The translations under genes were made by a program, and so were the position numbers. Source: Thermogladius calderae 1633 (lineage in GTDB: Archaea > Thermoproteota > Thermoprotei_A > Sulfolobales > Desulfurococcaceae). From it: 64,000 bases of DNA. Location of the stretch: positions 930,001 through 994,000 of the forward strand of contig NC_017954.1 of the NCBI RefSeq assembly GCF_000264495.1, given 5' to 3'. Position 1 is the first letter of the stretch. Each line of letters begins with the position of its first letter. Positions 20,233-44,010 of the stretch are shown in pieces. The notes beneath the pieces were generated by a model, which saw only the letters and a list, made by a program, of their open reading frames with translations, had not been told where the DNA came from and did no database searches.

Positions 20233-20934
20233 CTACTCCCTGCACGTTATAGTTGCGTGCGGCTTGCTCGAGTAAACCCCCGTAGCGACCTCCTGGACAA
20301 GCCCGGACTCCATTAGCTCGGTAAGCCTCCTATGGGTGGTGGACTTGGGCAGACCTGCTTCCCTGGCGATCTCTGAGAGCTTGGCTCTCCCGGCCTCTAG
20401 GGCGCTCACTATTCTAGCGCTCTTCTCGTCGAGCCTGAGTTTCTCGGCCAGTACGCGCGGGTCAACCCGCATTTCGCAGTCAAAGCCCTCTCCCTCGACC
20501 ACCACTCTCACCTTTCCGGCGAGCTCCCCGGGTAACATTAGTGCTGCCACGAGGAGAGCTGTGACGAGCATTCGCGGGCCTCCCGTCAAGTAGAGCTCTA
20601 ACTCCTGAGCTTCGGAAGCGGCTTTGAGCAACGTCGAGTAAACAGACCTCAGCATCTTCTCATCGGGTACTACGGGCTCTAAGGTGCACTCCACTCTCAT
20701 CGATGTGCAGATTAATGAGAGCGTAGCAAAGGCCTTCTGTACCCTTTCAAAGCCTCTAGCAGTCTTGAGCGCTAGCAACAAGACTTTATCGAACTTGCCA
20801 GAGGCCATCTCCCTAAATACGAAATCTATGTCGAATCCGAAGCTGGCGACTAGATAACGCATCGCCCACCCCACATCAATTATCTGAAACACCCAGTTAT
20901 AGCCTGATCGAGTAGCCGCAACACAAACTCTCAC
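20233..20934 (-). CDS. CRISPR transcriptional regulator Csa3 (CARF + winged helix), copy a
   Basis: 233 aa. Residues 1-~150 are a CARF domain with the ligand-pocket motif ELYLTGGPRMLVTALL. Residues ~165-225 are a winged helix: KSARIVSALEAGRAKLSEIA and REAGLPKSTTHRRLTEL. Csa3 proteins regulate cas operons or adaptation and may sense cyclic oligoadenylate. It lies directly upstream of the interference operon in the same orientation. GTG start. A second, divergent copy lies beside the adaptation genes. Confidence 0.87.
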   Translation of the reverse strand: MRVCVAATRSGYNWVFQIIDVGWAMRYLVASFGFDIDFVFREMASGKFDKVLLLALKTARGFERVQKAFATLSLICTSMRVECTLEPVVPDEKMLRSVYSTLLKAASEAQELELYLTGGPRMLVTALLVAALMLPGELAGKVRVVVEGEGFDCEMRVDPRVLAEKLRLDEKSARIVSALEAGRAKLSEIAREAGLPKSTTHRRLTELMESGLVQEVATGVYSSKPHATITCRE

Positions 20935-21454
20935 GAGACAGTATGCTCGCGGGCAAGCATTAAAGACCAGGGCTCTTCTGGAGCTATTTGAGGCGCTCCC
21001 CGGACTTCGGCGAGGACTTCTCGTTGAGGGGCTTCACAGGACTTAGCGTGAGCCCGGCGGCACGCTGGTGTTCCGCCTAACGCGAAAGGGGCGCATTAAG
21101 CTCTGCGGGAGAGTTCGCAGGGGGGCTATGGTCTCCTCGAGGGCAAGACGCTTAGGTCAGTTAAGGTGAAGCCAAGCGCTGGTGAAGGGCCCGGCTGAAA
21201 TCCTGAGGGCCGGAGTAGCAGACCTCAGAGACTAGTCCTGAAGACAAAGGTCGTGCTAAACGCTTTCCGGGACAGCCTGCATACATGGAGATGGGAAGGG
21301 GCTTAAAGCAGGGGACGCGCACGGTCAGTCACTATTGTAAACACAACTATTTCGCGCTCTACCAACGAGCCCATTTGGTGGTTGCCCCAGCTAGGTCTTC
21401 CCAGACAGCTGAGTGTTACGCGGAGAGTGATAGGCTTTATGCGGGAGTCTCGTC
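20935..21454. other. Gene-free spacer
   Basis: 520 bases after the broken nuclease gene and before csa3. Only short reading frames interrupted by stops; nothing recognised. Codon-like composition suggests eroded coding DNA. Confidence 0.4.
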
Positions 21455-22447
21455 TCATCTCCTTGATAGCTTCGCTAGGAGGTCCTTCCACTTCTCTAGG
21501 CTACTGTGGAGGTTTACTATGTCCTCGTAGCCTAACACGGTGAGCCTGTCTTTTATCTTAGCAAAGGAGGCCCTGAGGCGCGGCTCGACGAGGTTCATGA
21601 CTCTTGAGGCTTTGGCCTCGTCGCTTACGACCAGGTACAGTTGCTCGCAGTTCCACATATCCTTTGCGTGCGCCAACCTGGCCAGCGCCACGTCTACGTT
21701 TCCCTTGACGTCTACTTCGAAAGCCTTTAGTGGGGCGTGCCCGGGGGCGTCTCTCTAGGTAACATCCAATATATAAAGACCATCCGGCGTTTTCTCTTCT
21801 ACCTTAACTACGAAGCCCAGCCACTCTCCTATGTCGCGAACCATTTCCACCAGCCTGCGATGATTCGGAGTCTCGGAGATGTAGCCTCTTTCTCGCGGGG
21901 ACTCCACGTCAAACCTAGCAGTGGCGACAAGAACCCCCGCCGCCTTGTCTCTTATGCCATTGATAATAGTATCGATGATCCCGGGCCTTATGAGCGTGAA
22001 GCCGTGTATTTGCCACTCACTTAGAGGTCTCCTCCCCTGTGGCACGATATCGCCACACTCTCCCAGCTTTACAGGCCTTTTATACGCAGTTAGCCCTCTG
22101 AACTGTATGACCCAGGCCCACTCTCCAATTCTCGAGAAGGGTGCTTCGCCAACTTCAAAGGCACGCGCACAGTACTTTTCTTCGAACTCGCTGGCATCGA
22201 CGCGGGCAACCTTTTCAACTGTGAACTCCCCGAGGAATTCCCACTCGTTCCTAGGACTTCTTGGCGATGGTTTCGCCAGCACTAGACACACGCTGCCCTC
22301 AGTAAGATTCTTAATCCCTGGAGGTTGCCTGCCAGGAGGAAAGTGAAAAACTTCGCAACTGGTCTCAAGACACCTGTCAAACCACTCTCGGGTTGTTAAC
22401 ACGATACAGCCGTACTTTCCCACCCCAGCCAACCAAACCCCCGCCAT
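21455..22447 (-). pseudogene. EVE/PUA-like domain fused to PD-(D/E)XK nuclease, interrupted by one TAG
   Basis: ATG at 22447. The first 230 residues open with an EVE-like domain (WLAGVGKYGCIVLTTREWFD, TEGSVCLVLAKPSPRSP) and continue into a nuclease fold: RRLVEMVRDIGEWLGFVVKV, DGLYILDVT. TAG at 21755-21757 then stops the frame. The same frame continues RDAPGHAPLKAFEVDVKG and LARLAHAKDMWNCEQLYLVV to 21455, which completes the PD-(D/E)XK core (D in LDV, E-x-D-x-K in EVDVK). I recall full-length relatives with Trp at the stop (DVTWRD), so TGG to TAG is the likely lesion. EVE domains read modified bases, so the whole protein resembles a modification-dependent restriction enzyme. Confidence 0.7.
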
Positions 22448-22812
22448 CTAGTTGTGTGAATTGAAAAGCGAGCTTATAGTCTTTTGCCAGCTGGCGACGC
22501 CGACCCCAAGACACTATTAACCCTGGTGTGTATGACAAGGTACAAATACGGTGTTCTCAGCTTCACCTTTTGATTACCTGAGCTCGGAGTACTGCCCATA
22601 CTACTGGTGGCTACTCACGCGTAGCGGTGGCTCGCTTGCCCATATAGTAATAATGTTTCATGACCTGAGTGCTTGGAGAGCGACGTCCTCGAATGATTAT
22701 CATAGCTATGCCCATATTCGAGAAATGGCGTAACGGCATGGTCTAGCCCAAGCATTCACACATTGTTCGCCGTAGGGGACGTATGATAAACGTGTTATAG
22801 GAGTCTTATTAA
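22448..22812. other. Intergenic region between nuclease relic and thi4
   Basis: About 365 bases, richer in A+T than its surroundings, no convincing gene. The minus-strand ACTATAAGCTCG near 22468-22479 is a plausible TATA box for the broken EVE-nuclease gene. Confidence 0.4.
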
Positions 22813-22823
22813 CCTGATTATAA
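22813..22823 (+). promoter_or_regulatory. thi4 promoter, thiamine-gene element
   Basis: CCTGATTATAA, identical to the element before thiC, with exactly 23 bases to the TTG at 22847. This spacing supports that TTG as the start. Confidence 0.6.
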
Positions 22824-22846
22824 CGTAGTGTTTGTGGGTGGGTTCC

Positions 22847-23626
22847 TTGGAGCTCGAGTCTATTATAACCAGGCTTGTAGTGGAGGAGTCGGCGCGGGAG
22901 CTGGTCGAGCTCTCGGAGAGCGACGTGCTGGTCGTGGGTGCGGGGCCCTCGGGTCTGACGGCCGCTAAGTACCTGGCCGACAAGCACCTCAAAGTGGTGG
23001 TCCTGGAGAAGAGGCTCAGCTACGGGGGCGGGATCGGGGGCGGTGGCAGCCTGTTCCACAAGGTCGTGGTCGACGAGAGGGCTCTCCCCGTCCTCGGGGA
23101 CTTCAAGGTGAGGTACAAGGCGGCGGGTGTCGCAGGCTACTACGTCGTGGACTCCGCGGAGCTCATGAGCAAGCTGGCGGCGGGCGCCCTTGACTCCGGC
23201 GCGAAGATCATCCTAGGCGCCGAGGTCGAGGACCTCGTGGTCAGGGACAACCCGCTCAGGGTGGTCGGGGTCATGTTCAAGTGGAGCGCTATAACAGCCG
23301 CCGGCCTGCACGTAGACCCCTTGTTCGCCCTCTCTAGGGCTGTTGTGGACGCGACCGGGCACGAGGCGGTGCTGGTCAGCATACTGTCGAGGAAGAACAG
23401 GGTCGCCGGCGTCGCCGTTCCCGGCGAGAGGTCCGGCTTCGCCGAGAGAGCCGAGAGGGACGTCGTGGAGTACACGGGTAGGATGGTCCCGGGGCTCTAC
23501 GTGGCGGGGATGTCGGTGGCGGCAGTCCACGGACTCCACAGAATGGGCCCAATCTTCACGGGCATGCTCCTCTCGGGTCGGAAGGTGGCGGAGGCGATCG
23601 CCAGAGACCTGGGTGTCCCGCAGTGA
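22847..23626 (+). CDS. thi4: Thi4-type thiazole synthase (archaeal, His form)
   Basis: 259 aa. Makes the thiazole half of thiamine from NAD and glycine. N-terminal dinucleotide-binding motif [20 protein letters not shown], then [17 protein letters not shown]. The position of the sacrificial Cys of yeast Thi4 reads AGLHVDP, with His, as in methanogen Thi4 enzymes that use free sulfide catalytically. The C terminus [20 protein letters not shown] is typical. The TTG at 22847 is chosen from promoter spacing; upstream in-frame GTG and TTG codons would lie between TATA box and start. It overlaps thiD-thiN by 4 bases. Confidence 0.92.
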
Positions 23627-41372: not shown

Positions 41373-42224
41373 GTGCCGGGGTTGTTCGCTAGGAGGCTCG
41401 TCCTGAGGAGCGTCCGCAGGCTCTACGCGTGGTCCAGGGCGGACCCCGTGGAGGAGGAGCTGAGGGGGTGGAGCTGGGACAGGCCGCCGGTGAAGCCCAG
41501 GGCCTACCTGGGCCTCGGGGTGAGCGAGGTGGCGGGCAAGTACTGCCCGACGAGGAGGGACGTCTGGCTGAGGAGGAAGATGGGGCTGGCGCCCGAGACC
41601 ACAGAGCCCCTGGCCAAGGGGAGGCTGGTTCACGAGGCTGTCACGGCCGCTGTCCGCTGCGCCTCCAGGGGCCTGTCGAGGGGCTGGGAGACGTGGGACA
41701 TACTCACCTACTGCCTGGGCAGGTTCAGGCCGCAGGGCAACGGGGACACGGCCACGGCCCTCAAAGCCTACAAGTCGACGCTAGTCACGCTCCTCGGCGA
41801 GGTCGAGTACGAGAGGCTCGTGAGCGGCGGCAGCGGCCTGCCCGTCGTCAGCGAGATGAAGGTCGACGGGACGCCCCTGGGCCTCTCCCCCCAGCTCTCC
41901 ATAGACGTCTACGCCGAGAACATAGTCGTCGACTTCAAGACGGGCGCGCCAAGGGACTTCCACAAGCTCTCCATAGCCGGCTACGCCCTCGCCCTAGAGG
42001 CCGAGTACGAGGTGCCGGTCGACTACGGGATCCTGGTCTACGTCAACCCCTCCGACAGCGGCCTTAGAGTCCTGTACAGGCCCGTCTACGTGAGCAACGA
42101 GCTGAGGCGTTGGTTCTTGGAGGAGAGGGACGAGATAGTGGACATGCTCGTATCTAACAGGGAGCCCCCCAAGGACAAGAACTGCCCGCAGACGTGCCCG
42201 TTCTACAGGGTGTGCCACCAGTGA
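41373..42224 (+). CDS. csa1: Csa1 (Cas4-related adaptation nuclease of I-A)
   Basis: 283 aa from GTG 41373, which is ~31 bases after GTTTTAAAT (TATA box at 41337-41345). Cas4-like exonuclease: GVSEVAGKYCPTRRDVWLRR (first cluster Cys), AKGRLVHEAV, SEMKVDGTPLGLSPQLSIDV, IVVDFKTGAPRDFHKLSIAG (D and K of the RecB core) and the C-terminal NCPQTCPFYRVC (three cluster Cys). Csa1 helps process and orient new spacers. First gene of the adaptation operon; overlaps cas1 by 4 bases. Confidence 0.9.
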   Translation: MPGLFARRLVLRSVRRLYAWSRADPVEEELRGWSWDRPPVKPRAYLGLGVSEVAGKYCPTRRDVWLRRKMGLAPETTEPLAKGRLVHEAVTAAVRCASRGLSRGWETWDILTYCLGRFRPQGNGDTATALKAYKSTLVTLLGEVEYERLVSGGSGLPVVSEMKVDGTPLGLSPQLSIDVYAENIVVDFKTGAPRDFHKLSIAGYALALEAEYEVPVDYGILVYVNPSDSGLRVLYRPVYVSNELRRWFLEERDEIVDMLVSNREPPKDKNCPQTCPFYRVCHQ

Positions 42225-43211
42225 GGGACCTAGTGGTCTCAGAGCCGGGGACGGTCCTCAGGTTCAGGAAGGGCGTCTTCGTCGTGGAGAAGAAGGGCTC
42301 GAAGACGGAGATACCCCCGCTCGAGGTCGAGAGAGTCTTCGTGGCCAGCAGCCGCGTCGGGCTGTCGAGCAAAGTCCTGCTGAAGGCCGTGGAGTACGGT
42401 ATAGACGTGGTGCTACTCGACAGCAGGGGGGTGCCGGTCGCCAGGGTACACCCCCTCTTCAACAACAAGCTCACCGAGACCAGGAAGGCCCAGTACAGGG
42501 CGCTACTAGACGGGAGGTGGGCCCTGGTAGCGAGGGAGGTCGTGTACTCCAAGGTCATGAACCAGGCCGGACTCCTGAAGAGGTACTACTCGTACACCAG
42601 GGACCAGGCGCTGAGGGAGGGCTACGAGAAGCTCTCCACGCTCGCCAGCGAGGCCAGGCTGAAGGAGGGCGTGGCCCTGTCCGAGCTCAAGGAGTGGCTA
42701 AGGGGCGTGGAGGCGGAGGCGGCGAGGGTCTACTGGGGCCTCTACGCCACTCTACTGCCCAGGGAGCTAGGCTTCCAGGGGAGGGACCAGGAGGGGGGCG
42801 ACCCCGTGAACGCGTCGCTCAACTACGCCTACGGAATACTGTACTCGGAGAGCTACAGCGCTCTGGTGATCGCGGGGCTCGACCCGTACGCGGGCTTCCT
42901 ACACGAGGACAGGCCGGGCTCGACGAGCCTCGTCTTCGACTTCGTCGAGCAGTTCAGGTTCATCGCCGACGCCGCCCTCCTAGACCTCCTGAGGCACGGG
43001 TGGAGGCCCTCCCTCAGCGGGGGGCTGCTGGACTACGAGTCGAGGAGGAGGGTGGTGGCGGGGGTCCTCGAGAGGCTGGAGAAGGCGAAGACGAGGAGGT
43101 TCGGCGAGGCGCCGGTCTCGCTGAGGGGGGCTATGAGGAGGAGCGCCCTCTCCCTAGCGTCGTACCTGAGGGGGGAGGGGGGTCTTCCAGGGCTTCGTCT
43201 ACGAGTGGTGA
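42221..43211 (+). CDS. cas1: Cas1 integrase, with an apparent frameshift near its end
   Basis: GTG 42221 (GTGA overlap with csa1). Integrase core: GDPVNASLNYAYGILYSE (Glu), AGFLHEDRPGSTSLVFDFVE (His, Asp). After ALSLASYLRGE the frame as written runs on ~98 unrelated codons to 43504 through cas2. If the second of two G6 runs (43177-43182) had one G fewer, the product would end GVFQGFVYEW with a stop at 43209-43211, just before the cas2 ATG, giving a normal 329-aa Cas1. Either an assembly error in a homopolymer, a recent mutation or slippage. As written, the protein has a long foreign tail. Confidence 0.9.
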
Positions 43212-43214
43212 GCC

Positions 43215-43499
43215 ATGATAGTCCTGGTCGCGTACGACATAGAGGACGACGAGACCAGGGCGAAGCTCAGCGACTACCTGAAGTCCAAGGGGCTGACGAG
43301 GATCCAGAGGAGCGTCTTCGTTGGGAGGCTGCTGCCGTCCACGGCGAAGGACGTGGAGAGGGCGCTACCCAGGTTCGTGAAGGGGGAGAGGGACGTGATA
43401 CACTACATCCCGCTCCTCGAGTACAGCCTCAGGTACCTCAAGTACTTCGGCCACCCCCTCGCGGTCCTGTCCGTGGGCAGGGAGCCCCTGGTGGTGTGA
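43215..43499 (+). CDS. cas2: Cas2 adaptation protein
   Basis: 94 aa ferredoxin-like fold. Starts MIVLVAYDIEDDETRAKLSD, with the conserved Asp after the first strand, then RIQRSVFVGRL. Together with Cas1 it forms the integration complex. ATG lies 3 bases after the restored cas1 stop; cas4 begins 1 base after its stop. Confidence 0.93.
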   Translation: MIVLVAYDIEDDETRAKLSDYLKSKGLTRIQRSVFVGRLLPSTAKDVERALPRFVKGERDVIHYIPLLEYSLRYLKYFGHPLAVLSVGREPLVV

Positions 43500-43500
43500 T

Positions 43501-44010
43501 TTGAGGTTCGCGGGCAACCCGCTCTCCCCCTCCATGGTCAAGGAGATGGTGTACTGCCCCGTGATCGCCTGGCTGAAGGCGAGACACCTGGTGCAGGAGC
43601 CCGCGACGGACAGCATGCTGGCCGGGAAACAGGCCTCGGGGGGCGGGGGGCTGTACGCGAGGGCCGGCGGCTACAGCGCGCTGGTCGACGAGGTCAGGGA
43701 GGAGGGGGGCGGGGTGGTAGTGGTGGAGAGGAAGGCCTTCAAGGCGAGGGACGCGCAGAGGTACATGGCCCAGCTCGTCGCGGGGGCCTACATACTGTCG
43801 CTTAAGGGCGTGAGGGTCAGGAGGCTGGTCCTCGAGATGGGGGGTGTCAGGAGGGAGCTGGAGTTCACGGGGGAGCTCGTGGAGGAGGCCAGGAGGTACC
43901 TGGGGGAGCTGGAGAGGCTGGCGTCTAGCGACAGGCCTCCGCAGCCGACTAGGCCCGGTAGGCGGTGCTCCTCCTGCTGGTACAGGAGGTTCTGCCCCTA
44001 CACGGAGTAG
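43501..44010 (+). CDS. cas4: Cas4 exonuclease
   Basis: 169 aa, TTG start. Cas4 4Fe-4S cysteines: VKEMVYCPVIAWLK near the start and RRCSSCWYRRFC at the end. RecB core residues: ALVDEV, VVVVERKAF (E-x-K), QLVAGAYIL (Gln-Tyr-like motif). It trims pre-spacers and selects the PAM side. Last gene of the adaptation operon, overlapping by 13 bases the end of the convergent second csa3. Confidence 0.9.
   Translation: MRFAGNPLSPSMVKEMVYCPVIAWLKARHLVQEPATDSMLAGKQASGGGGLYARAGGYSALVDEVREEGGGVVVVERKAFKARDAQRYMAQLVAGAYILSLKGVRVRRLVLEMGGVRRELEFTGELVEEARRYLGELERLASSDRPPQPTRPGRRCSSCWYRRFCPYTE

Follow-up and report, generated by a model that had tools for sequence, protein, structure and literature searches.

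Probable recent inactivation of a putative modification-dependent restriction gene by an in-frame TAG in Thermogladius calderae

A stretch of 64,000 nucleotides from the genome of Thermogladius calderae 1633 (the window; positions 930001-994000 of one closed contig of 1,356,318 bases that is 99.95% complete) carries a reading frame that is broken once, by a TAG, inside the core of a predicted nuclease domain. The question is whether such a frame is a dead gene, a sequence error or a site at which the stop is read through, all of which were proposed in an initial annotation that gave the coordinates of the open frame on both sides of the TAG exactly, without naming its strand, which is minus. 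The probable answer is that a gene encoding a type IV-like, modification-dependent restriction endonuclease was recently inactivated, with a sequence error as the main rival, whilst readthrough has found no support.

The interrupted gene and its relatives

The gene occupies positions 21455..22447 of the window on the minus strand, 331 codons including the final stop. From the ATG at 22447 there are 230 codons (21758..22447, minus strand) for the predicted reader domain, a linker and the start of the nuclease up to LDVT; the TAG follows as codon 231 (21757-21755), after which the frame stays open for the 99 codons that encode the rest of the nuclease (21458..21754, minus strand) and ends at the stop at 21455-21457. 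The interruption is a substitution-type stop and not an indel, with other frame damage absent. An independent second gene past the TAG was rejected as the first ATG, GTG or TTG is at 21691, beyond the conserved Glu244, and for the same reason a restart cannot supply the part of the nuclease that is lost. The genome has no second copy of the protein or of its nuclease domain, the lone copy being the one with the TAG.

About 520 bases downstream of the gene, on the same strand, csa3 and type I-A cas genes begin, and no CRISPR repeats were found beside the gene in 20900-21500 or 22400-23000. The G+C content of the gene is 53.6%, compared to 60.0% for the window, which agrees with acquired DNA. 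A tRNA-Asp called by ARAGORN at 22870 was dropped, as it lies inside thi4 and is absent from the covariance-model tRNAs. Elsewhere in the window the cas1 ORF (42194-43504, plus strand) continues out of frame through the region of cas2 (~43200-43480), and a different frame just upstream of cas2 resembles the end of Cas1, so that cas1 seems to carry a frame break close to its end or a sequencing fault.

Uninterrupted orthologues with the same build were found in two genomes when 229 genomes of the class were searched. L059 (a 318-codon frame in G101) and L061 (316 codons, G133) align over their full length with the read-through protein, at 50% and 49% identity respectively, and both have Trp opposite the TAG. 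As the sequence before the TAG and that after it match one and the same unbroken ORF in each of these archaea, the continuity of the frame is not chance, and the proposal of one gene interrupted by a stop, for which a search for intact homologues had been suggested, is borne out. A scan of genome contigs found the same two loci again, as L132 (Acidilobaceae MAG JAPYWV010000022.1) and L131 (Desulfurococcales MAG WYEQ01000002.1), plus three others; the genus has three further genomes, and none of them gave a match to L059.

A profile of the nuclease domain (A2) has matches in 61 of the 398 sampled genomes of the phylum. Conservation was assessed in 48 distinct rows, taken from stretches around the better profile matches and from earlier loci and not from all matches, with the window excluded and duplicate loci (L085, L086 and L175) and identical rows removed. 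The column of the TAG holds W in 42 of these, F in five and L in one, with no stop, and it is W in all nine non-window rows of the nuclease profile alignment, so the tryptophan that had been named for this position is indeed the usual residue. No stop is found at the same column in 12 stretches with short or interrupted matches, nor in the loci L004 and L005.

It had been reasoned that one interrupted gene would be in doubt if homologues ended at DVT, with the second half a separate protein; the relatives are instead one protein through this position. The second half does occur alone as an open frame in L074 (G175, 96 aa) and in L135/L118 (a Bathyarchaeota MAG, 103 aa). As both start in unrelated or degraded sequence and are without the conserved Asp, they look like remnants. 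The reader alone also occurs in open frames, in L063 (172 aa) and in L058 (182 aa) with its near twin L064. In L062 (1477-2301, G021) the same kind of PUA-like reader is followed by a PaREP1 domain (Pfam, 6e-24) in place of the nuclease. No virus-borne copies were found in viral contigs (with single-protein queries) or in phages, and no plasmid-borne copies with L107, rather than the window protein, as query.

A predicted PUA-like reader and restriction-type nuclease

Structure was modelled with AlphaFold2 from the read-through protein and five relatives (mean pLDDT 78). In this model residues 11-173 (21929..22417, minus strand) form a PUA-like domain that is nearest to ASCH domains (Z 12.4-13.1; best 5y6b, Z 13.1, rmsd 2.8 over 134 aligned residues), then to EVE-type structures (2gbs Z 11.0, 1zce Z 10.6, 2eve Z 10.3), human THYN1 with 5-methylcytosine DNA (5j3e, Z 10.1), YTH domains (Z 9-10) and the N-terminal domain of Staphylothermus marinus McrB (6n0s, Z 9.5). 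The predicted fold places the domain in the PUA-like superfamily (ASCH/EVE/YTH). The reader had been annotated as EVE, which stands as far as the PUA-like fold is concerned, but ASCH is the closer of the two folds (Z 13.1, compared to Z ~11 for EVE) and the domain has no Pfam EVE match (PF01878), of which the whole genome has none. With E values up to 1 allowed, the window protein still matches no family in Pfam, so the name EVE can at best describe the fold, and on the model PUA-like (ASCH/EVE/YTH) is preferable. PADLOC and PHROGs likewise gave no match to the protein and NCBIfam one sub-threshold model (E 0.028).

The ASCH proteins that match best (5guq, 5gus and 5y6b) share only 12% identity with the domain and are compared by fold alone; the window domain differs from them in being fused to a nuclease. 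The Zymomonas ASCH protein is, by the title cited as reference 14 of PMC7641849, a ribonuclease specific for single-stranded RNA, and with this as the best fold match the target of the reader could be RNA.

The C-terminal domain, residues 195-319 (21491..21865, minus strand), has a predicted restriction-endonuclease-like fold, with the alpha-beta-beta-beta-alpha-beta core present in the model as helix 196-209, strands 213-219, 226-232 and 241-246, helix 251-265 and strand 269-274. The best match to this part of the whole model is AF1548 (1y88, Z 9.7, 109 aligned), and when the domain is folded alone it is EcoT38I (7e8r, Z 9.8, 132 aligned), with FokI, MspJI and Cap4 lower. These matches are at Z 6-10 only and RNA polymerase subunit E, a known look-alike of the PD-(D/E)XK fold, is similar at Z 6-9. 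Foldseek found nothing at E < 0.001 for the isolated C domain, and in a sequence search of solved structures nothing was found below E 0.49 with the window protein or at E up to 1 with the nuclease profile. The assignment is therefore based on a second structure aligner, secondary structure and motifs, and on the model matches the annotation of a nuclease fold, joined to a PUA-like reader, is upheld.

Among the motifs is an acidic pair, Asp228 (21764..21766) and Glu244 (21716..21718), both invariant in all 48 relatives, and His196 (21860..21862), at the start of the first nuclease helix in the model, is invariant in the 45 rows with a letter at that position (all minus strand). The halves had been read as completing one active site, LDVT(stop)RD ... 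FEVDVK; this motif is present and its Asp and Glu are invariant, but its K is outside any conserved ExK. Position 246, where an ExK lysine would be expected, holds Q in 17 of the 48 relatives, H in 15, E in seven, V in five and S in three, with K outside these five commonest, and position 248, the K of FEVDVK, is K in only five of 47. A conserved lysine of (D/E)xK is thus absent from the family alignment. Lysine-less variants of PD-(D/E)XK are known, and its absence here lowers rather than excludes the probable membership of this fold. With this catalytic residue variable across the family, it is not certain that even the intact members cut.

The closest comparison amongst known systems is with type IV-like fusions of an EVE or other PUA-type reader to a nuclease, and EVE-PD(D/E)XK fusions are described in passages of PMC7641849 as putative type IV enzymes. 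The same reader-then-nuclease order is found in the window protein, as is a defence-type neighbourhood, with type I-A cas genes in the window and COG1743/DUF499 beside some relatives. It differs in that its reader is undetected by Pfam EVE and nearest in fold to ASCH, in having no conserved ExK lysine, and in being interrupted. Mrr-type enzymes, in which an Mrr_N winged helix precedes the nuclease, are linked to the family by a relative (L095) with an N-terminal Pfam Mrr_N on this nuclease, whereas in the window protein the reader is PUA-like and the Pfam Mrr catalytic domain gave no match.

A further comparison is with the COG1743-DUF499-SWI2/SNF2 system. COG1743 is beside relatives in five of 44 stretches and DUF499 in four of 44, as raw counts with no chance baseline, and in L059 the genes adjoin the orthologue in divergent orientation with Pfam DUF499 and DUF1156. 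In T. calderae the corresponding operon of COG1743 (DUF1156), DUF499, a small ORF and an SNF2 helicase/NOV_C gene is at 1133199-1143571 of the genome (L177 5200-15572); it is itself open and differs in lying ~180 kb from the broken gene. As the nuclease sits behind several readers, as COG1743/DUF499 genes lie near some relatives and cas genes near the gene in the window, and as similar fusions are treated as putative type IV enzymes in that part of PMC7641849, restriction is the likely job of the intact protein. Type IV activity, the cleavage of modified and not of unmodified nucleic acid, is putative.

Gene loss, sequence error or a working product

In its intact form the N-terminal PUA-like domain would bind modified DNA, or possibly RNA, and the C-terminal PD-(D/E)XK-like domain would cut. 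A nonsense change at codon 231, which is inside the model strand 226-232 that also carries Asp228, would end translation within the nuclease core. The product of 230 residues would retain the reader together with the first helix of the nuclease and the greater part of its Asp strand, whilst losing Glu244 and all beyond, and therefore should not cut. We infer the substrate, the cutting, the restriction of foreign DNA and the biological nature of the change alike.

The time since the gene was broken appears to be short. When the window is compared to L059 and L061, differences found only in the window make up 28 of the 88 single-lineage columns before the TAG and 16 of the 39 after it, with a Fisher p of 0.32. 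The window has no excess of changes of its own past the stop and no decay is detectable there, which leaves either an inactivation of recent date or an error in the sequence. If change is neutral, only at ~0.08 substitutions per site does the chance of a further stop among the 987 coding bases reach 95%, thus any release of the gene from constraint has probably lasted for less than about that distance, or never took place.

That the gene may never have been free of constraint is what a sequence or assembly error would mean, the living strain then having an uninterrupted gene. A base-calling error would look the same as an inactivating change, the N and C halves are equally well preserved, also fitting an unbroken gene in a living strain, and the frame is otherwise undamaged; the cas1 gene in the window that also looks frame-broken could mean that there are assembly errors. 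Set against this are the nature of the stop, a substitution rather than an indel, and a record that is one closed and almost complete contig, and such an error is the less likely explanation, if one to be taken seriously. A use for the short product, as a stand-alone PUA-like reader that perhaps serves the COG1743-DUF499-SNF2/NOV_C operon, is improbable. The genome keeps that operon open, reader-only relatives with open frames exist (L063, L058 and L064), and archaeal stand-alone EVE proteins are noted in a portion of PMC7641849 as partners of COG1743-DUF499-SWI2/SNF2 systems; however, the stop is inside the nuclease core and not at a domain border, so that ~35 residues of incomplete nuclease would be left, the operon is distant, and the undecayed C half implies that there has been little time for selection of such a role.

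The least credible of the explanations, and a very improbable one, is that suppression, recoding or pyrrolysine carries translation past the TAG, so that the whole protein is made. In its favour, the frame is open on both sides without decay, but none of 46 tRNAs has a CTA anticodon. These were found with the tRNA covariance model and their anticodons assigned by ARAGORN, a procedure that may overlook tRNAs that are split or permuted; the six that had introns or were called oddly were inspected by eye and none reads CTA. The best PylS matches, of 26.8 and 22.7 bits, are far below the cut-off of 178, which one of 14 genomes in a control set passed. The use of in-frame TAG elsewhere, a check that had been proposed, speaks against readthrough as well. 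TAG is the commonest stop in the window, where it ends 24 of 45 long non-overlapping ORFs (a set chosen mechanically that counts the interrupted gene and includes a few non-genes), and the median in-frame extension past it is 24 codons, no longer than the 29 past TGA. Nor does any relative have a stop at this column. These are not the features of a pyrrolysine or amber-recoding organism, and where TAG is the main stop of an archaeon, a single one in frame is no sign of recoding, however perfect its flanks. An ordinary recent gene loss is the most likely explanation, with the gene a pseudogene and a new branch of the type IV-like EVE/PUA-nuclease fusions, a kind of protein known in outline.

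Different readers and broken copies in the nuclease family

The same nuclease is found behind a number of different readers. It follows a Pfam EVE domain in L111 (E 2.3e-12) and L070 (2.8e-13) and an Mrr_N domain in L095 (G296, E 1.7e-8), all over cut-off, a weak EVE in L102 and a zinc ribbon in L105 (G457), with a similar ribbon seen by eye in L085 (G394). The presence in relatives of a reader recognised by Pfam as EVE or Mrr_N, joined to this nuclease, is in keeping with the type IV-like logic that the initial annotation had proposed. Other N-terminal domains precede the module in L065 (G087) and L113 (G415).

The T. calderae gene is also not the only broken copy. At least five of the 12 suspect stretches have frameshifts or stops, namely L114 (G344), L115 (G388), L116 (G342), L119 (G329) and L124 (G348), and L004 and L005 (G023) are further copies broken in one of these ways. 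The breaks in these other copies fall at different places, and some may be assembly faults as most of those genomes are in many contigs.

It can tentatively be suggested, at somewhat less than even confidence, that this is a largely unnamed nuclease family of the Thermoproteota, for which no Pfam or PADLOC model of the module was found in the members scanned. A restriction-fold domain that lacks the customary lysine (H ... D-V-x-W ... F-E-V-[QHE]) would be combined with readers that can be exchanged, among them ASCH-like, EVE, zinc-ribbon and Mrr-type winged-helix domains, and that set which modification is attacked, and the gene would be gained and broken repeatedly as the modifications of local viruses change. 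With its module present in 61 of the 398 genomes sampled from the phylum, and placed behind several kinds of modified-base reader, this reader-swapping family is the part worth following. The swapping of readers is directly testable, and intact members from thermophiles could be heat-stable modification-dependent enzymes.
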